Positions 41,928 to 50,345 of a DNA stretch of 64,000 nt are shown one piece after another. A program made the translations under genes and the position numbers. The stretch lies in the NCBI RefSeq assembly GCF_963676275.1, contig NZ_OY781091.1, forward strand, positions 2,954,775 to 3,018,774. Direction: 5' to 3'. Position 1 is the stretch's first letter. Each line of letters begins with the position of its first letter. Below the pieces are notes generated by a model. That model ran no database searches, was not told where the DNA came from, and saw nothing but the letters and a program-made list of their open reading frames with translations. Source of the stretch: an uncultured Cohaesibacter sp. (lineage in GTDB: Bacteria > Pseudomonadota > Alphaproteobacteria > Rhizobiales > Cohaesibacteraceae).

Positions 41928-42590
41928 TCAGAATGCCTGCCCGAATTTTGATTGTTTCCAAAGCACTACCGCTTGAGATGTCGCCTGATAGACAGCCTTG
42001 CCGATAGCCTCTCCCAAGGCGGTATGCAGACCGGCATAACTTGCGTCACCCTGCGGCGCAGCCAGCGCGATGCAATCCGTGCCGGTTCCCGTTGCCCTGC
42101 CCGTGGCAATCTTCAAATCGGCATCATAGACCGCCGCAGTCCGGGCTTCGCTTGCAATGGACATAGCCTCGAACAAAGCCCATTGCTGCAAGCCCTGCTC
42201 GATGATCACAGCCAGATTGATCGTGCCCCAGCCATCCTTACCCCAGTCCAGACGAGCCCCCACGCGCTCGGCATTGGAAAGCCCGGCGGTGCAAATCGCC
42301 GTCACATGCGCCTCTTCAACCTGCGCCTCGCAGACACGATAATTGCCAATATCACAAGATGTGAGCATGGTTACGGCATCCAAGGCACCGCGCTGGGAAA
42401 GCTCCTTTACAAGCCAGACCTGCGGGTCGACATCAAGGGGCAGATCGCTATTGTTCACCTTGCGCCAAAGAATCTGGCCAGCCTCTACCAGACCGGGCCG
42501 GTGTACCGCCCAGCTTGCAATCTGAAGCGGCCTCGAAAAGGCGACCGAAAGCCAGAGGCCATCATGATCAATCTTGCAGGTAAAAGACAT
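41928..42590 (-). CDS. cbiZ: Adenosylcobinamide amidohydrolase
   Basis: 220 residues. CbiZ cleaves the nucleotide-loop side chain of adenosylpseudocobalamin or cobinamide to adenosylcobyric acid, letting the cell rebuild imported corrinoids into its own cobalamin form. Signatures are AVTMLTSCDIGNYRV, CTAGLSNAERVG, GTINLAVIIEQ, AMSIASEARTAAVYD and ATGTGTDCIALAAP. Its ATG directly abuts the tonB stop codon (TAAATG), so it is the last gene of the cobalamin operon. CbiZ is best known from archaea and some bacteria including Rhodobacter. Confidence 0.92.
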   Translation of the reverse strand: MSFTCKIDHDGLWLSVAFSRPLQIASWAVHRPGLVEAGQILWRKVNNSDLPLDVDPQVWLVKELSQRGALDAVTMLTSCDIGNYRVCEAQVEEAHVTAICTAGLSNAERVGARLDWGKDGWGTINLAVIIEQGLQQWALFEAMSIASEARTAAVYDADLKIATGRATGTGTDCIALAAPQGDASYAGLHTALGEAIGKAVYQATSQAVVLWKQSKFGQAF

Positions 42591-43910
42591 TTATCTTGAG
42601 AATCTCACAGGCAAGGTCAAACTATGTCTTGCCCCGGAAAATTCTTCCGGCGGCTTGGGGGCCGGAGACGCTCTGAGGGGCAATCGACGGATCTCGTCAT
42701 CAAGCGCCCGGTCGCCCGCGCTTTTAACCAGTGTTGCGGTCAAAACGCGTCCGGAACGATCAATGACAATCCGTACCACGCCGCTGCCGCGAACACCACG
42801 CATTTTAGCAGAGCGCGGATAACGCTTGTTTCTTTCGATCCAGCGCCGCAGCAAGGTGGAATAGCTCGCCCGCACGCCTTTCGATCCCGGCCCGGCCGCC
42901 TTGTTCGATGAGCCCCCGTCGCCTCTGGCCGAGGCCTTGCCCGAGTCTTGGCCAGAGACTTTGCCAGAGACTTTGCCAGAGGCTTTAGCAGCCCCGGCTT
43001 TTGCGCCTCCAGCCATGCGCCTGTCATGGGAGGAAACCGTCCGGCTGATAGCCCCCTTGTCACCATCGGCCTTGGCCAGTTCGGTCCGCTTTGGCTGAGG
43101 CGTGATTTTTGCCCTTGGCGCCACAATCGGCAACTGCGTTAAGGCATCCCCCTCCAGCAGAGAAACCTTGCCTGCCGGTGCTTCCTTCTTGACAGGCTCT
43201 TCGGACTTTTCGGGTTCTTCCGCCTTCGCTGGCCGCGCAATTTCCACGGCTGGCACTGGCGGCTTTTCGGTTTCAGCGACAACAGGTGCAGTCTCATCTG
43301 GCAGAGAGGTTTCTGCTTTCTCTTGCGATGGCGCAACATTCTCAGAGATCACATCCGGGGTCACTTCAGGGGCAACATCTGGAGCGACATCGGGCATAAC
43401 AGCAGGCTCGGTTTCAACAACCTGCGTCTCTTCTGCCAGCTCTTGCAACGGAGGCACAGAAGCTGCTTCCTTTTCCTCTTCCGGCGCAATGGTGGCCTGA
43501 GGCTCTTCCCTGATGTCTAGGTCTTCATGCGCAGCTTTGGTATTGACGTCCATTTCATTGGAAAGATTATCATTCTGAGAAACATCATGCGCCGAAACCG
43601 GGTCTTCAGACTTTTCGATAAATTCTTCCGCCGCCCCGGCATCAGGCTGTTGCATCTGCGAGGATACTTCCCCCTGAGCGCCCGCGATCAGCGGCTCGTC
43701 ATTCTCGCCATTGGTCAGATTCTCTGTTGGTCCACCGGCAATGCCCTGCCCCATATCGGGCATGATCGAGACAAGCATATCGCCTGCAAATGCACCGCCC
43801 AGATCATAGCGCGACTCGCCATCCAGCTCTCCCCAATAGGCAAGGGCAATCGCCAGATGCAGCAGCACACCAACGCTTATACCGACGCTCCACAAGGCCA
43901 ATCTCTTCAC
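42591..43910 (-). CDS. tonB: TonB-like energy-transducing protein
   Basis: 439 residues. A single N-terminal membrane helix (about 6-26) is followed by a very long periplasmic linker rich in Glu, Pro, Val and Ala (about 100-250). Short repeats such as PDVAPDVAPEVTPDV lie inside it, then a Gly/Ser/Lys repeat block near 305-335. The C-terminal TonB domain is at about 350-439 (YSTLLRRWIERNKRYPRSAK, GVVRIVIDRSGRVL). TonB transmits the proton-motive force to outer-membrane receptors, here presumably BtuB. The ATG overlaps the exbD stop by 4 nt. Confidence 0.9.
   Translation of the reverse strand: MKRLALWSVGISVGVLLHLAIALAYWGELDGESRYDLGGAFAGDMLVSIMPDMGQGIAGGPTENLTNGENDEPLIAGAQGEVSSQMQQPDAGAAEEFIEKSEDPVSAHDVSQNDNLSNEMDVNTKAAHEDLDIREEPQATIAPEEEKEAASVPPLQELAEETQVVETEPAVMPDVAPDVAPEVTPDVISENVAPSQEKAETSLPDETAPVVAETEKPPVPAVEIARPAKAEEPEKSEEPVKKEAPAGKVSLLEGDALTQLPIVAPRAKITPQPKRTELAKADGDKGAISRTVSSHDRRMAGGAKAGAAKASGKVSGKVSGQDSGKASARGDGGSSNKAAGPGSKGVRASYSTLLRRWIERNKRYPRSAKMRGVRGSGVVRIVIDRSGRVLTATLVKSAGDRALDDEIRRLPLRASPAPKPPEEFSGARHSLTLPVRFSR
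42951..42986. repeat. Three 12-bp tandem repeats inside tonB
   Basis: GCCAGAGACTTT occurs twice, then GCCAGAGGCTTT, back to back. On the coding strand this gives an SGK(V/A) repeat in the periplasmic linker. In-frame repeat number could change linker length. Confidence 0.8.
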
Positions 43911-44302
43911 CGCTGGCGCACCTCCAGCTTGACAGTCCCCTTGCTGTAGGAGCGAAGGCTTTGGGCAAGATCGAGCACTTGGGCAAAGTCAGCCCCGGCA
44001 TCGGCACGTATCACCAGATCGCGCCCCTCTTCATCTTCCAGCAAGGCCGCCTTGAGCGCAGCAAGAGCTTCTTCGCGCTCAAGATGCGAGCGGAACTGCA
44101 CCGCGCCCTTGGCATCGACAAAGAGCAGCAGCGCTGCCCCCTTCTCCTCGCTGGCGGCGCTTTGAGCCGGAGTGATATCCAGACGGGGTCGCTCGGCAAC
44201 ATGTCCCATCAGCATCAGGAAGATCAGCAGCAGGAAAACCACATTGATCATCGGCAGAATGGTCTCGCCAAATTCCGGCCGTTCCGGCTCATCGAACTTC
44301 AT
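43907..44302 (-). CDS. exbD: ExbD-like protein with Asn at the proton-carrying position
   Basis: 131 residues. It has one membrane helix (about 15-35) and a periplasmic domain rich in acidic and Ala residues. The helix reads ILPMINVVFLLLIFLMLM. Asn20 stands where ExbD/TolR proteins carry the essential protonatable Asp (PxID). The remaining features fit the ExbD/TolR family. It overlaps the first exbD stop by 14 nt and the tonB start by 4 nt. It is probably the second, non-protonatable partner in an ExbD heterodimer. Confidence 0.88.
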   Translation of the reverse strand: MKFDEPERPEFGETILPMINVVFLLLIFLMLMGHVAERPRLDITPAQSAASEEKGAALLLFVDAKGAVQFRSHLEREEALAALKAALLEDEEGRDLVIRADAGADFAQVLDLAQSLRSYSKGTVKLEVRQR

Positions 44303-44684
44303 CGCGCGCCTCCGGAACCAGAGTAACCGCCTTCACGCCCATTGCCTTGAGCCGATCCAGAGCATCAACCCCTTGCTGAATCGGCACGGCCTGCGCCAGA
44401 TAGACAGACACCGGCTGATCCTTGCTGACCGCAAGCGCCAAGGCCTCTTCAACGGGCGTGCCATTGCCGGTCGAAAGCACGCCCTCCGCGCTAAGTGACA
44501 GATGCAGCGCGAGGGTGCCCCCTCCTGCCCCTGTTCCGCCCTTGACCAGATCGATCACACGATAGTGGCTGAAGGAGGAAACCAGCATGAAAAAGACAAT
44601 CAGAATAAAGATCACATCAATCAGCGATGTCAGGCTGACTTTCGGTCGCCGTCTTCTTTCTTCTGAAAAATCAAACGCCATCAT
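44289..44684 (-). CDS. exbD: ExbD, canonical
   Basis: 131 residues. The membrane helix VSLTSLIDVIFILIVFFMLV contains Asp23, the conserved proton carrier. A periplasmic domain follows. With ExbB it forms the proton-driven motor that energises TonB. It overlaps exbB by 4 nt (ATGA) and the next exbD by 14 nt, so all are translated in a coupled way. MMAFD start; the second ATG is also possible. Confidence 0.92.
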   Translation of the reverse strand: MMAFDFSEERRRRPKVSLTSLIDVIFILIVFFMLVSSFSHYRVIDLVKGGTGAGGGTLALHLSLSAEGVLSTGNGTPVEEALALAVSKDQPVSVYLAQAVPIQQGVDALDRLKAMGVKAVTLVPEARDEVR

Positions 44685-45310
44685 TCAGCTCCGGCACTCA
44701 GCGCATCCTCTTGCGCCATCGCTGACGAAGGGGCTGGCCCATTCTCTCTCAAATTGCCGAACAAGGCATCTGTGGCCACACATTCCAGCCGATAGCGCAG
44801 GCTTTCGACCAGACTGTCCAGCAGCGCGTGCACCACCATGGCGCATAGCGCAATGACCATACCGGCCGCAGTCGTGATTAGCGCCACCCAGATCCCTCCT
44901 GCAAGATCGGAAGGATTGACTGCATCGCCCGATGCCTGCATCGCCTGAAAGGCATCAATCATGCCCAGCACCGTGCCCAGCAACCCCAACAAGGGAGCCG
45001 CAGTGACAATCAGCTCCAGCAAACGAAATCCCGTGCGAGCCTGCCTGAGAAAGCCTCTGACGACCAATGTCACGCTTTCCTCGATCTGTTCGCGATTGGC
45101 ACCCGCCTTCTTGCGTTTCTCAATATGATAGCGCAGATCCTGAGCGGCACCGCTGCGATAGGAGAATGGCTGCAACAGGGCGATCTGCACCGCAGAAACA
45201 AGCGCGGTCGCGACCGTCAATATCGACAGGCCCGCCAGAGCGACAAGTGTCCAGCCTCCCATTTCAATGAGAAGCGACCAGAGTTCAAGCAACTGCTGTT
45301 TAAAAGCCAT
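44681..45310 (-). CDS. exbB: ExbB/TolQ/MotA family proton channel protein
   Basis: 209 residues with three membrane helices: about 17-42, 110-140 and 150-175. LLELIVTAAPLLGLLGTVLG and GIWVALITTAAGMVIAL are the family's pore helices with the conserved Pro and Thr residues. It forms the pentamer around the ExbD dimer and drives TonB. The ATG lies inside the 3' end of btuD (11-nt overlap), linking it to the cobalamin importer genes. Confidence 0.92.
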   Translation of the reverse strand: MAFKQQLLELWSLLIEMGGWTLVALAGLSILTVATALVSAVQIALLQPFSYRSGAAQDLRYHIEKRKKAGANREQIEESVTLVVRGFLRQARTGFRLLELIVTAAPLLGLLGTVLGMIDAFQAMQASGDAVNPSDLAGGIWVALITTAAGMVIALCAMVVHALLDSLVESLRYRLECVATDALFGNLRENGPAPSSAMAQEDALSAGAE

Positions 45311-46121
45311 GAGGCTCTTCTCCTTGCAGGAAAAGGGGGTCGTGCTGTCCGCCTTCGACCAATTCGGTTGGAACTATGAATGACCGCTCACCCGATTCGA
45401 CATTCTTGATGCGCACGCCATAGACTTCCTGCATCCGGCGTGCCGTCATCACATCCTTGGCCAGACCGTCATCGAGCAAAACGCCATCATTGAGAATGAG
45501 AATGCGCTCGCACCACTGGCTGGCCAATGACAGATCATGCAGGGAAACAACCACCGTCTTGCCCTGCCCGACCAGATGCCGCAGCATCCGCATCAGGCCG
45601 ATCTGATGGGCCGGATCAAGTCCGTTTACCGGCTCGTCTGCGATGATGGTATTGGCTTCCTGTGCCACCAGTCGCGCAATGAGAACCCGCGCCTGCTCGC
45701 CGCCGGAAAGTTGATCAAAGGTGCGGTTGACCAGTGGCCCCAGCCCCATCATGCGGATCGCCCGGTCCACCGCTTCTTCATCCGCTGGCGAAACCCGGCC
45801 AAATGCCGTCTGATAGGGCATGCGCCCGAGCATGACCACATCGCGCACCATCAGCGGCCAGTGAACCACACGCTCTTGCGGCAAAAAGGCCACCCTGCGC
45901 GCCAGCTCCATGGCGCTCATGTCATAGCTGGGCAGATTGTCGATCAGGATTTCGCCATGGAAACGCACCAGCCCGACCAGCGCCCGCATCAGCGTCGATT
46001 TGCCAGCCCCGTTTGGCCCGATCAGCCCGATCAGCTCGGCTTTGTGCGATGAGAAGGTGACATGCTTGAGCGCCGTTGATTTTCCGAGCGAAACGCCAAC
46101 ACCAGTGCATTGAATGGACAT
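45300..46121 (-). CDS. btuD: Cobalamin/iron-chelate type ABC transporter ATP-binding protein
   Basis: 273 residues. Walker A GPNGAGKST near 36-44, ABC signature LSGGEQARVLIARL near 130 and Walker B TIIADEPVNGLD are intact, followed by the H-loop His in VVSLHD. It belongs to the FecE/BtuD group. The start is ATG 46121, with GGAGGA 7 nt upstream; it overlaps the btuC stop by 1 nt (TGATG). The last 50 residues extend beyond the core. Assigned to cobalamin by the riboswitch and neighbours. Confidence 0.9.
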   Translation of the reverse strand: MSIQCTGVGVSLGKSTALKHVTFSSHKAELIGLIGPNGAGKSTLMRALVGLVRFHGEILIDNLPSYDMSAMELARRVAFLPQERVVHWPLMVRDVVMLGRMPYQTAFGRVSPADEEAVDRAIRMMGLGPLVNRTFDQLSGGEQARVLIARLVAQEANTIIADEPVNGLDPAHQIGLMRMLRHLVGQGKTVVVSLHDLSLASQWCERILILNDGVLLDDGLAKDVMTARRMQEVYGVRIKNVESGERSFIVPTELVEGGQHDPLFLQGEEPHGF

Positions 46122-47119
46122 CAGACAATCCTCCTTCTGATCTTGTGCAGAAGCCACAGGAAGAAGGGAGCCCCGATGATCGCGGTGACGACGCCCAGCT
46201 TGAGGTCCTTTTCCGGCAGAACCACACGCACGAGAAGATCGGCCAGCAGCAGGAAGGCCGCCCCGCCAAGCGCGCTCACCGGCAGCAGACGGCTCGGCTT
46301 GGCGCCGACAAGCGGCCGCAGCAGATGCGGCACGATAAGCCCGACAAAGCCGATCATGCCGGTAACGGCCGTGGCAGCCCCCACGCCAATTGCGGTGCCA
46401 AGAATGGCCAGTGTCCGGGTTCGCCTTGTATCAACCCCCAGCGATCGTGCCACATCCGGCCCCAGACTGAGCGCATCCAGCGCCCGGCCGGTCGAGAGCA
46501 GCATCGCCGCTCCGGCCGCCATGAACGGAACCGACAGCACAACATGCACCATGCTGCGGTCGGCCAGCGACCCCAGCAACCAGAAGACAATTTCCAGCGA
46601 GGCAAAGGGATTGGAAGACAGATTGAGCACCAGCGAGGACAGCGCATTGGCAAAAGAGGTAATCGCCATTCCCGACAGGATAAGGGTCAGAATATCCGAA
46701 CTGCGCCCGGCAAGGACAAGCAGCAGCAACACCCCCAGCAACGCACCGGCTAGGGCCGCAACAGGAAGGGCATAAGGGAACGAGGTTGTCAGACCGGAAA
46801 AAATGGCCACAATCGCCCCAAGCGATGCCGAGGCCGAAACGCCCATGACACCGGGCTCAGCCAGAGGATTGCGCAACAACCCTTGCAGCACAGCGCCGCA
46901 AAGCCCCAGTGTCGCGCCGACGGAAAGGGCGAGAATGGCGCGCGGCAGCCTGATCTCCAGCAGAATGACATGATCAGCCCGCGCAATCTCGTCACTTCCA
47001 GCAAAGAGACCGCCAAGCGGATTGATCCAGACTTGCCCAACGGCAAGGGAGAGACAAAAGAGAAAGACGACCAGCCCCAGCAACAACGCAATCAGGAGCG
47101 AGAAAGAGGGACGAAGCAT
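46121..47119 (-). CDS. btuC: FecCD-family ABC permease (BtuC-like)
   Basis: 332 residues with ten transmembrane segments, length typical of BtuC/FecCD. RLPRAILALSVGATLGLCGAV near the start and VTGMIGFVGLIVPHLLRPLV near 255 are hallmark segments, the latter preceding the coupling helix that contacts the ATPase. It imports corrinoid from the periplasm with BtuF and BtuD. It lies 3 nt downstream of btuF. Confidence 0.93.
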   Translation of the reverse strand: MLRPSFSLLIALLLGLVVFLFCLSLAVGQVWINPLGGLFAGSDEIARADHVILLEIRLPRAILALSVGATLGLCGAVLQGLLRNPLAEPGVMGVSASASLGAIVAIFSGLTTSFPYALPVAALAGALLGVLLLLVLAGRSSDILTLILSGMAITSFANALSSLVLNLSSNPFASLEIVFWLLGSLADRSMVHVVLSVPFMAAGAAMLLSTGRALDALSLGPDVARSLGVDTRRTRTLAILGTAIGVGAATAVTGMIGFVGLIVPHLLRPLVGAKPSRLLPVSALGGAAFLLLADLLVRVVLPEKDLKLGVVTAIIGAPFFLWLLHKIRRRIV

Positions 47120-47122
47120 CGG

Positions 47123-47968
47123 CTAATTACCTTTTTCCTTCTGCATTATCTTCCTCTGCAAATCAGCCACCGCATCCACCGAGAATGGCCCGCCGCAAAT
47201 CCAGTAGCGCGTATCCACCGTTATGCGGCGATTCGGACCGAACCAGTCCATCAAAACCGGATGGCTCAAGACCTGTGTCGCCCGCGCCGGTCCACCAGTC
47301 CACTGGGTCCAGCTCATGACATAATCGGGATTTTGGCGAATGAGCGCCTCAAGAGGAAATTTCACGGTACTGCCGTAAAAGCCAAGATCCTCACCCATAT
47401 TATGCAGGCCCGTCGCCTTGATCATTTCATTGGTCAGCGTTCCGGCACCGCCGGTGTAGCTGCTCGGCTCATAAGAAGCCAGCACCTTATGTTCTCTGGG
47501 CGCATTTTTCTTCAGGTCTGCGAGCTTGTTGTCAAAATCGGTCAGCATATGGGCCGCGCGCTCCTGCTGCCCCAGCAACTGGCCCAGCCGCCTGATATTG
47601 TCCCGAATGCCGTCAAAGCCGCTAACGGGAGAAAATTGCTCCACCCGCACATTGAACTGCTTGAGCAGGTTGATCGTGTTGACCGAAAGATAGGGGCCAG
47701 CCAGCACCAGATCAGGCTGAAGCCGAATGATCTCTTCGGCTTTGCCGTGATTGATCTTGAAGCCGCGGGCCTTCTCAATCATGACCGAAGTATTGGGATC
47801 AACGGCAAGTCTGGAAACAGAAAGCAACTGCTCCGGATCGGCAATCAGCAAGGCCAGCTGATCCGTACAAAGATTCAACGAGACGACACGCTGGGGACGG
47901 GCAATGCTCCGCTCGGGCGCAAATCCAAAAAGGAAGAGTATACAGAGTGAAAGCAACATCCGGGCCAT
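47123..47968 (-). CDS. btuF: Periplasmic cobalamin-binding protein of the BtuF/FhuD type
   Basis: 281 residues. A signal peptide covers about 1-23. The mature protein has the class III fold: RVVSLNLCTDQLALLIADPE at the start, KAEEIIRLQPDLVLAGPYLS, then a second lobe with LASYEPSSYTGGAGTLTNEM. It would hand corrinoid to BtuC. No lipobox is visible. It lies 66 nt after btuB, so it is in the same transcript. Confidence 0.9.
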   Translation of the reverse strand: MARMLLSLCILFLFGFAPERSIARPQRVVSLNLCTDQLALLIADPEQLLSVSRLAVDPNTSVMIEKARGFKINHGKAEEIIRLQPDLVLAGPYLSVNTINLLKQFNVRVEQFSPVSGFDGIRDNIRRLGQLLGQQERAAHMLTDFDNKLADLKKNAPREHKVLASYEPSSYTGGAGTLTNEMIKATGLHNMGEDLGFYGSTVKFPLEALIRQNPDYVMSWTQWTGGPARATQVLSHPVLMDWFGPNRRITVDTRYWICGGPFSVDAVADLQRKIMQKEKGN

Positions 47969-48034: not shown

Positions 48035-49933
48035 TCAGAAGTCGGCCTTCATACCGATATAGCCGGTGATGCCAGCGGTATTGTAACCATAGACTTCCTG
48101 ATAGTCGGCATCGAGCAAATTCTCGACGCGACCATAAAGCTGTACCTGATCATTGATCTGATAATCGGCCCCGACATTGACCACGGCATAATCGGCCAGC
48201 GTGATGGGAGACGAGACATAGGACCAGGAGGGCGTCAGCGTCCATACATTGTCGGTCATGGATCCGTTGAACACGGCATCAGCGAAGACATGGGCCTTGC
48301 CATCAAGCAGGGACTGGGTGACCTGCACCGAGCCGCTATGACGCGGCGCGCGATAGATTGTCGTGCCGGACTGGGTATGAAGGTAACTGTAGGAAGCCTT
48401 CACATGCAGGGTGTCGGTCACAGCCAGATCAGCGGCCACTTCGATCCCCTGTTTTCTGGTCTCGCCTTCGGAGTTGCAAAGGCTGGTGGAAGCCCCTGCG
48501 CTGCAGCTCACAATCGCGTCGGTCAGGGTCTGGTTGAAATAGGTTACATCAACCGAGAAACGATCATCAAACATCGCCTGCTTGATGCCGAAATCCCAGC
48601 CGATGCTGCTTTCCGGTTTCAGATCCGGGTTGCCAACAAAGCTGGAATAGCTGCCGAACTGATCATAGAAGCTGGGATTTTTCACGCCCTTGCCCACCGA
48701 GGCATGCAGCCGCGAATTGGTCTCGTTGATCTGGTAGGCCGCACTGGTGCTGTAGGTGAAGGCATTCTTGAAATCGTCATTGATATCATAGCGCACAGCG
48801 GTATTGAGAAACAGCTTGTCCCAATATTGACCCTGATACTCGGCCACAAATCCATACAGATTGCGTTCCTGAGTGCCGTTATTCAGATAGCTGTCTTCAA
48901 AGCTCTCATTTTCCCATTCGGTTTCACCGGTGAGACTATGCTTGGCATCTGCAAAATTCGGAGAATCGAAAAAGAGCGTGCCCTGATAGCTCAGATGTGT
49001 CCGTTCGGTCTTGGCGACATAAAGGCCACCGGCATTCTGGTCGCTCTCCACATTGGTATATTCGCCCTTGAGCTTCTGAACAAAACGGTCATCCATCAGA
49101 GACCATGTCAGGCCCGCGCCGGTGTAGAATTCCTTGGTCTTGCTGTAGAGGCCCGCAGCATCGGTCGCCTTGCCGGTGGTATAATTGGTGTCATCCACTT
49201 CCGACTTGCGATCAACATATCGCGCAGACCCGCTGAATTTCACATTGTCGGAGAGATCGGCATTGATGCGACCATTCAGCGTCACGTTGCGATCACCATC
49301 ATCCTCTGATCCGTCATCGGAAATATTGAAGCCATCCGTTCTGCGGAAAGCACCCGAAAAGGCATAATCAAAGCGATCATGACCGCCCGACATGCCAAGA
49401 TCGAGCAGAGCCGTTCCGTCTGTGCCGGTCTCGGTTTTGATGGAGGCGTGATTGCCATCCCGTCTGCCGGACTTGGTGATGATATGAACCACACCGGCAA
49501 CCGCATCAGACCCATAAAGCGCACTCTGCGGACCGCGCAGCACCTCGATGCGCTCGATATCGGCAACCTGTAAACCACCGAAGTCAAAGGACCCGTTGGC
49601 ATTTTCGGTCGCCTCGATATCATCAATCAGCACCAGAACATGGTTGGTTTCCGAACCACGGATGCGAATGCTGGTCAAGCCACCGTAGGAACCGGTGCGG
49701 TTGACGATCACACCGGGCACCGAGCGCAGCGCATCGGCGACATATTTGATCTGGCCTTTCTCCAGTTCCTCGCCCGTGACCACACTATAGGCCCGACCGA
49801 CCTTTTCCTCATCAACCGGCGTAAGACCGGCGGAAACAACCACCTCGTCCAGATTGAGATCTTCAGCATAGGCCGCTGTGGTTCCGAGCAGGCCAAGGGC
49901 AACAAGGCTGGTGACACCCATTTTTCCCGACAT
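48035..49933 (-). CDS. btuB: TonB-dependent outer-membrane cobalamin receptor
   Basis: 632 residues. A signal peptide covers about 1-23 (ending TAAYA). A TonB box-like segment DEVVVSAG follows. The plug domain has VADALRSVPGVIVNRTGSYG, SIRIRGSETNHVLVLIDDIE and IERIEVLRGPQSALYGSDAV, all typical of BtuB. A 22-strand barrel follows, with a C-terminal aromatic (YIGMKADF). The start is ATG 49933, with GGGAG 8 nt upstream. The cobalamin riboswitch in its leader supports the substrate. Confidence 0.95.
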   Translation of the reverse strand: MSGKMGVTSLVALGLLGTTAAYAEDLNLDEVVVSAGLTPVDEEKVGRAYSVVTGEELEKGQIKYVADALRSVPGVIVNRTGSYGGLTSIRIRGSETNHVLVLIDDIEATENANGSFDFGGLQVADIERIEVLRGPQSALYGSDAVAGVVHIITKSGRRDGNHASIKTETGTDGTALLDLGMSGGHDRFDYAFSGAFRRTDGFNISDDGSEDDGDRNVTLNGRINADLSDNVKFSGSARYVDRKSEVDDTNYTTGKATDAAGLYSKTKEFYTGAGLTWSLMDDRFVQKLKGEYTNVESDQNAGGLYVAKTERTHLSYQGTLFFDSPNFADAKHSLTGETEWENESFEDSYLNNGTQERNLYGFVAEYQGQYWDKLFLNTAVRYDINDDFKNAFTYSTSAAYQINETNSRLHASVGKGVKNPSFYDQFGSYSSFVGNPDLKPESSIGWDFGIKQAMFDDRFSVDVTYFNQTLTDAIVSCSAGASTSLCNSEGETRKQGIEVAADLAVTDTLHVKASYSYLHTQSGTTIYRAPRHSGSVQVTQSLLDGKAHVFADAVFNGSMTDNVWTLTPSWSYVSSPITLADYAVVNVGADYQINDQVQLYGRVENLLDADYQEVYGYNTAGITGYIGMKADF

Positions 49934-50145
49934 TGGATAAACTCCCAACAACGCTGAAACCGAGCAAAAACACCACAGAAACTCGTGGCTCCCGCGTTTC
50001 AGACATGGTCAATATCACTGTATCCAGACCACCGAACGACGCGCCTGAAAGCCGCCGATAATGATCCCGGAAACAATTTTCTTTTCTATGATGTCACCGC
50101 AACGGAAGGCCGCACCCAGACACACCCCGTATCCAAGGTCGGGTG

Positions 50146-50328
50146 ACAGACAAGGGCAGGTCTCCTGGCTTCGCGGGTCCTCGCTGAACATTCCCCTTCC
50201 CAACGGCATGGTGCCAGTCAGTGGATCTTTAAATGTCAGCTTTCCGCTCACAGTTGCGGGGGCAGCCACGGTCTCAGCAAAAGCCTCACCGTGTTCCCTT
50301 TTCATCCGAATGGATCGTCGGAACCTTT
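50146..50328 (-). promoter_or_regulatory. Cobalamin (AdoCbl) riboswitch in the btuB leader
   Basis: Read on the minus strand, the conserved blocks appear in order: GGGAACACGGTGAGG, a GCAACTGTGAGCGG block, CCACTG before a GGCACC arm, GGGAAGGGG and the B12 box AGCCAGGAGACCTGCC at 50155-50170. This is the class I cobalamin riboswitch, which represses expression when adenosylcobalamin is bound. About 210 nt of leader separate it from btuB and should hold the expression platform. A short open frame across it (50015-50305) is spurious. Confidence 0.95.
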
Positions 50329-50345
50329 GTCTCGCGGCGTAATAT

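Follow-up and report, generated by a model that had tools for sequence, protein, structure and literature searches.

In the window, the whole stretch of 64,000 nucleotides analysed here, two adjacent exbD genes encode proteins that differ at the motor position of the helix, with aspartate in the first copy and asparagine in the second. The first-pass annotation had regarded this pair as a possibly conserved arrangement rather than decay, and our survey bore this out, as 168 of 171 tandem pairs of the window family had Asp then Asn, the Asn codons varied, and the helix core carried no charge. The recurrence of the pairing in many related bacteria looks like a working one-sided motor, not a broken copy. 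We tentatively propose a naturally one-sided 5:2 motor with one Asp and one permanently neutral Asn, which may have persisted in self-contained uptake cassettes across deeply diverged lineages and may have evolved twice.

Two exbD genes with different residues at the motor position

The two open reading frames pointed out in the first-pass annotation were confirmed on the minus strand, and both products matched the ExbD/TolR family PF02472 above the cut-off of 25.4 bits (43.4 bits for copy 1 and 52.4 bits for copy 2). ExbD-1 (positions 44289-44684, 131 aa) has Asp23 at the motor position (SLTSLIDVIFILIVFFML), within the stretch SLTSLIDVIF, and ExbD-2 (43907-44302, 131 aa) has Asn20 at the motor position (ILPMINVVFLLLIFLMLMG), within ILPMINVVF. 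The codon for Asp23 is GAT (complement of 44616-44618) and that for Asn20 is AAT (complement of 44243-44245). Copy 1 therefore has a protonatable Asp at the motor position of its helix, and copy 2 does not. The two proteins shared 25% identity over 124 aligned residues, and Asp23 and Asn20 fell into one column of the joint alignment of both copies. Profile alignments to solved structures also paired each of them with Asp25 of E. coli ExbD (6tyi_Y), gap-free in the vicinity. The earlier assignment of Asn to the motor position, for which an alignment had been suggested as the check, thus held, and a misalignment of Asn20 was ruled out by the profile alignments.

Neither copy reached the cut-off (127.3) of the TolR equivalog TIGR02801, the scores being 31.6 for copy 2 and 26.1 for copy 1. 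Against the E. coli-type ExbD equivalog TIGR02803 (cut-off 152.95), copy 2 scored 19.4 and copy 1 had no match among those listed. The predicted structure of copy 2 (mean pLDDT 82, pTM 0.55) contained a helix at residues 15-35, followed by strands and helices resembling the periplasmic domain of ExbD. The top seven Foldseek matches of this model were periplasmic domains of ExbD or TolR, with 8vgc_A as the best one (E 1.0e-3, probability 1.00). Judged from sequence and predicted fold, copy 2 is a member of the ExbD/TolR family, and it should not be called a proton-carrying ExbD.

The pair is located in a vitamin B12 operon, all elements of which are on the minus strand. A cobalamin riboswitch (50138-50343; RF00174, 120.5 bits) lies upstream of a gene for a btuB-like TonB-dependent receptor (48035-49951; start uncertain, best NCBIfam match TIGR01779 at 244 bits, under the cut-off of 599.7). 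This is followed by the genes for a btuF-like periplasmic binding protein (47123-47968; PF01497), a btuC-like FecCD permease (46121-47119; best NCBIfam match BtuC at 228 bits, under the cut-off of 334), and a btuD-like ABC transporter ATPase (45300-46157; start codon uncertain, none of the 25 NCBIfam matches listed being at cut-off). Next come exbB (44681-45310, 209 aa), encoding the single pentamer-forming partner with the channel threonines kept, exbD(Asp), exbD(Asn), and tonB (42591-43910, 439 aa; TonB_C, TIGR01352), and a gene for a cbiZ-like adenosylcobinamide amidohydrolase (41928-42590; PF01955) ends the operon. The exbD pair thus adjoins exbB, tonB, and a TonB-dependent receptor gene, and the overlaps are 4 bases for exbB/exbD1, 14 bases for exbD1/exbD2, and 4 bases for exbD2/tonB. 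As the cbiZ-like gene closes the operon and the cobalamin riboswitch precedes it, the organization suggests that cobinamide or other corrinoids are taken up and remodelled with the help of a dedicated motor.

Motor residues in tandem pairs

The genome searches covered the phylum of the window, together with a mixed contig collection and a plasmid collection. All of the 20 regions fetched for a genus and order sample held Asp-then-Asn pairs. When the mixed contig collection was scanned with an ExbB query, which is free of any ExbD, 79 of the best 80 of 547 relatives had an ExbD pair, being Asp then Asn in 79/79, and the other one (L099) ends at a contig end; the kept loci were, by their titles, from Alphaproteobacteria. 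Searches with the Asn-copy profile yielded at least 30 loci from 398 genomes of the phylum and 24 new loci from 289 genomes of the class, and 40 further regions were added to the survey in two batches of 20. All loci up to L232 were counted after removal of duplicates and of L009, L010, and L099, which were without ExbD.

The resulting 171 non-redundant tandem pairs of the window family consisted of 168 Asp/Asn pairs, two Asp/Asp pairs (L148 and L211), and one locus (L184) in which the first copy is cut off by a contig end. The second copies accordingly had Asn in 169, Asp in two, and another residue in none of the 171 cases. In contrast, unpaired ExbD/TolR proteins had Asp in 36/36 and Asn in 0/36, where "unpaired" stands for no second ExbD within the stretch examined, some of these stretches ending at contig ends (e.g. 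L161 and L212). The Fisher p value for 168:2 against 0:36 was about 3e-38, which merely illustrates the contrast because the rows are related and the sets are non-random.

As the queries were ExbB from Asp/Asn loci or the Asn-copy profile, this survey under-samples Asp/Asp pairs. A fairer sample of PF02472 matches from 60 genomes gave at least nine tandem pairs, which were three Asp/Asn (two of them in the source genome), three Asn/Asp, and three Asp/Asp pairs. Twenty regions were fetched in this sample, comprising four listed pairs and 16 apparent singles, and the latter turned out to be two Asn/Asp pairs, 13 proteins with Asp, and one (L246) not covering the motor site. The Asp/Asp pairs L233-L235 belong to another subfamily and formed their own clade beside TolR. 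Together with L148 and L211, they ruled out the generalization that all ExbD pairs are Asp/Asn. The proposal that Asp and Asn copies always co-occur was therefore correct in one direction: every Asn copy with a readable neighbour had an Asp neighbour, but an Asp copy can also be paired with another Asp copy.

Constraint on the Asn copy and gene packing

Both synonymous codons were used for Asn (AAC in 105 and AAT in 62 of the 167 rows read), and the Asp of copy 1 was encoded by GAC in 104 rows and GAT in 64; these codon counts and the helix counts were made inside the set already classed as Asp/Asn, where Asn is 100% by construction, and the count made without this classing is 169 Asn among 171 second copies. 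No charged residue was found from -4 to +13 around Asn in the 167 copy-2 rows read. The helix signature was mostly T-[P/S]-L-I-D-V in copy 1 and mostly [I/L/V]-[P/A]-L-I-N-[I/V]-V-F-L in copy 2, and the +13 position was occupied by Gly in 149/167 copy-2 rows and by Ser in 152/168 copy-1 rows. Highly divergent copy-2 helices (e.g. AQVNIVLLLVLF, LINIVLLLVLA, and LVNLVFLLLGF) were seen at L228, L229, L196, L205, and L208, with Asn still kept.

Most copies showed 17-28% identity to the copies of the window, and one close relative showed 76%. Because Asn is nearly invariant with both codons in use and without charge in the helix, despite such low identity, an uncharged hydrogen-bonding side chain at the motor position of copy 2 seems, from the sequences, to be under selection.

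The start of copy 2 overlapped the stop of copy 1 or was at most 20 bases away in 157 of 168 loci, a count that took the start codon nearest to the copy-1 stop and so favours short distances (one value of -408 was an artefact). Co-variation between the copies (168 pairs, effective number about 116) gave top scores close to those of eight shuffles. When only the helices were considered, the observed near-diagonal co-variation was reached by 175, 165, and 25 of 200 clade-preserving shuffles, and the mean of the top ten scores in the same run was reached by 3, 0, and 0 of 200 shuffles.

Sequence features of the partner ExbB

The equivalents of ExbB Thr148 and Thr181 were kept in 164/164 covered ExbB rows of Asp/Asn loci. 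The ExbB of the window has GGIWVALITTA, with Trp-Val in place of the Ala-Glu of Serratia ExbB, the Glu of which we take to correspond to Glu176 of the E. coli protein. Trp preceding the Glu176 equivalent was present in 162/164 ExbB rows of Asp/Asn loci versus 0/57 in other systems, the latter being 25 rows of single-Asp loci, 16 of TolQ, three of other Asp/Asp loci, and 13 of Agl-like loci (from 10 places); rows with this site uncovered were left out (11/175 of Asp/Asn loci and 1/26 of single-Asp loci). At the Glu176 position itself, ExbB of Asp/Asn loci had Val in 116/164 and Glu in 35/164. Trp, usually together with Val at the Glu176 position, is thus a possible marker for the Asp/Asn motor type. 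The ExbB of both Asp/Asp loci, L148 and L211, also had Trp, and by this signature the two loci belong to the same system as the Asp/Asn loci.

Phylogeny of the two copies

A tree was constructed from 114 rows and 130 columns with the motor column blanked; its branches were long and the deep order was unsure. A branch with support of 98/94 had on the same side 33 of the 36 second copies with Asn as well as the two with Asp, and first and second copies, separated by the tree, appear to be old paralogues.

The second copies with Asp (L148:1480-1890 and L211:1555-1953, both on the plus strand) nested among Asn copies, and that of L211 was sister to an Asn copy (100/98). Their Asp residues are either natural reversions or relics, which would make the two loci useful natural controls. 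As these two members of the Asn clade carry Asp, Asn is not indispensable in every lineage. The Asn rows L186, L204, and L206 were located outside the main Asn clade, shut out by a starred branch, and the starred branches force at least three changes of the second-copy-Asn label. The Asp/Asn state itself needs six changes on the tree. These six changes and the three excluded Asn rows indicated that the history was not one clean event.

An Agl-like family with the reverse order

The PF02472 sample also pointed to another group of loci, with the order ExbB-like, ExbD(Asn), ExbD(Asp), and a weakly TonB_C-like protein. We call these loci Agl-like because of their gene order and of a remark on taxonomy in PMC3169522. 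A profile search found them at 10 places in 9 of 299 genomes, with Asn first and Asp second in 10/10 distinct loci; three of the 10 matches carried a flag for internal stops, and open frames were used to read the motor residue. In these loci (L244, L245, L236, and L253-L262), Asn occurs in motifs like ELDITSFxNLMIVLVP. The Agl-like Asn copies formed their own clade (100/99), and the window copies (L003 rows) were outside the Agl-like clades, the Agl-like rows being relatives found here and not Myxococcus sequences. Asn possibly arose twice, once in the Ton type with Asp first and once in the Agl-like type with Asn first. A single clade of all second copies and the Agl-like Asn copies was also compatible with the data (AU p 0.313).

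Other cassettes with an Asp/Asn pair

The source genome had five PF02472 matches, which were the window pair, a second pair with Asp then Asn, and one TolR with Asp. The second pair (L265; 580000-596000 in its own genome coordinates) sits with its own exbB and tonB, next to genes for a TonB-dependent receptor, an enterochelin-esterase-like protein, a binding protein, two FecCD permeases, and an ATPase, and the cassette looks like one for a catecholate-type siderophore. As both pairs adjoin exbB, tonB, receptor, and ABC-transporter genes, each pair of the source genome appears to sit in a self-contained uptake cassette.

When the plasmid collection was searched, no match was obtained with the Asn copy of the window or with the Agl-like Asn copy. 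An Asn copy from Rhodobacterales gave 27 records, two of which were examined. On plasmid pP66_c of Phaeobacter inhibens (L263), an Asp/Asn pair adjoins genes for a heme ABC transporter and for a receptor, constituting a heme uptake cassette; this pair is annotated merely as two "biopolymer transporter ExbD".

Discussion

ExbD works as a dimer in the ExbB5:ExbD2 complex, and Asp25 of E. coli ExbD, located near ExbB Thr148 and Thr181, is called essential (PMC6778125). A review describes ExbD(D25N) as inactive and failing to crosslink (PMC11658791). ExbD, TolR, and MotB are all described as dimers in a pentamer, and in most reviewed structures the two Asp residues of the dimer are unlike, one being on the Thr ring and the other free (PMC12905483, PMC12583513); for one TolQR structure, another arrangement was reported (PMC12905483). 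According to the MotAB model, which has been applied by analogy to TolQR, two identical Asp residues take turns with a 36-degree step per proton (PMC12583513).

The two ExbDs of the window probably form an obligate heterodimer within one ExbB pentamer (ExbB5:ExbD-Asp:ExbD-Asn), with one proton-active subunit, and drive a dedicated TonB that serves the operon's own receptor. The first-pass annotation had already put forward a heterodimer with asymmetric operation, a reading that our data support in part. The heterodimer is the simplest reading because ExbD is dimeric in ExbB5:ExbD2, the genes are closely packed, and D25N is described as inactive (PMC6778125, PMC11658791). It is weakened by the near-diagonal co-variation, which fell short of the prediction, by the second-copy Asp of L148 and L211, by the six changes on the tree, and by the one differing TolQR structure.

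In such a heterodimer, the Asp subunit alone would pick up and release protons, and the Asn subunit would be a permanent uncharged look-alike of protonated Asp, hydrogen-bonded onto the ExbB threonine ring formed by the Thr148 and Thr181 equivalents. The roles would then be fixed, unlike in the known 5:2 motors, which are thought to alternate two equal Asp residues between engagement with the ring and a free state. We infer that such a motor would make one proton-driven stroke per 72 degrees, or would rock instead of rotating, spend half as many protons on each turn, and always offer the same face to the single TonB strand that binds between the two ExbD domains. As one D-box strand of TonB binds between the two ExbD protomers (PMC10907165), unlike protomers could fix the side of TonB. 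If this is true, two proton-driven strokes of the textbook motor correspond to a single one here, and alternating Asp residues are dispensable for a working 5:2 motor. A natural single-Asp motor in many lineages of one phylum would allow tests of the need for alternation, the protons per step, and rotation versus rocking of Ton motors. With unlike ExbD protomers, each one is also marked, which would make it possible to ask directly to which side the single TonB binds.

A rival reading is constructive neutral loss, in which an obligate heterodimer arose after duplication and one motor Asp was then lost as surplus, leaving Asn without a mechanical role. One active site per complex may suffice, and the site is not locked, since the second copies of L148 and L211 carry Asp. 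A lost site should, however, drift to many residues, whereas the second copies showed only Asn and Asp, and the Agl-like family also had Asn at every locus; we thus regard neutral loss as unlikely. Separate homodimers seem more doubtful still. As one exbB serves two exbD genes, mixtures are possible, and Asp/Asp might be the motor with Asn/Asn as an inactive plug, reservoir, or competitor regulating it, but the close packing and the pairing, which is strict and in a single order, fit a fixed 1:1 complex more readily than a regulator. The D25N variant of ExbD is moreover cited as inactive and failing to crosslink (PMC11658791), and for this reason an Asn/Asn motor should not work.

Two further explanations are much less likely. 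Replacement of the motor Asp by another coupling ion, or by an acidic residue at another site of copy 2, would be conceivable mainly for residues outside the helix and is very improbable, given the charge-free stretch around Asn and the unchanged Asp partner and ExbB threonines. The Asn copy does not have the proton-carrying residue, as would be the case for a decaying pseudo-paralogue, but its intact frames, ExbD-like predicted fold, and synonymous variation of the Asn codon, the near-invariance of Asn in the survey, and the two such pairs in the source genome leave practically no room for decay, which we consider ruled out. The heterodimer with a single proton-active subunit therefore remains our preferred reading.

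Comparison with known systems

An earlier mention of an Asp/Asn ExbD pair is possible, and none was found in the accessible text of the open-access literature. The E. coli ExbB5-ExbD2 Ton motor (6tyi; PMC6778125) resembles the window system in the protein families, the motor position, and the Thr148/Thr181 ring of ExbB, and tonB is encoded next door in the window. It differs in that two identical ExbD subunits both have Asp25, while the two exbD genes of the window have diverged and one of them encodes Asn. ExbB of the window type, unlike that of E. coli, also has Trp beside and mostly Val at the Glu176 position. Closer in gene organization are the tandem ExbD1/ExbD2 of Sphingobium SYK-6, encoded with tonB and exbB in one operon, although both are described as keeping Asp25 (PMC8599685).

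The AglR-AglQ-AglS gliding motor of Myxococcus xanthus likewise has a single ExbB-like protein, together with two ExbD-like proteins that are unlike each other (PMC3169522, PMC9389320). Whether AglQ and AglS form heterodimers or homodimers is stated as unknown in a review, according to which both have Asp (PMC9389320), in contrast to the Agl-like loci found here, which come from other genomes within the phylum and have Asn ahead of Asp. TPH-vWA proteins with TolQ-like motors are described mostly as heterologous pairs in a TolQ-like pore, but with one Asp per monomer (PMC12204202), and there is no ExbD gene nearby. Tandem ExbD1/ExbD2 genes as such have long been known.
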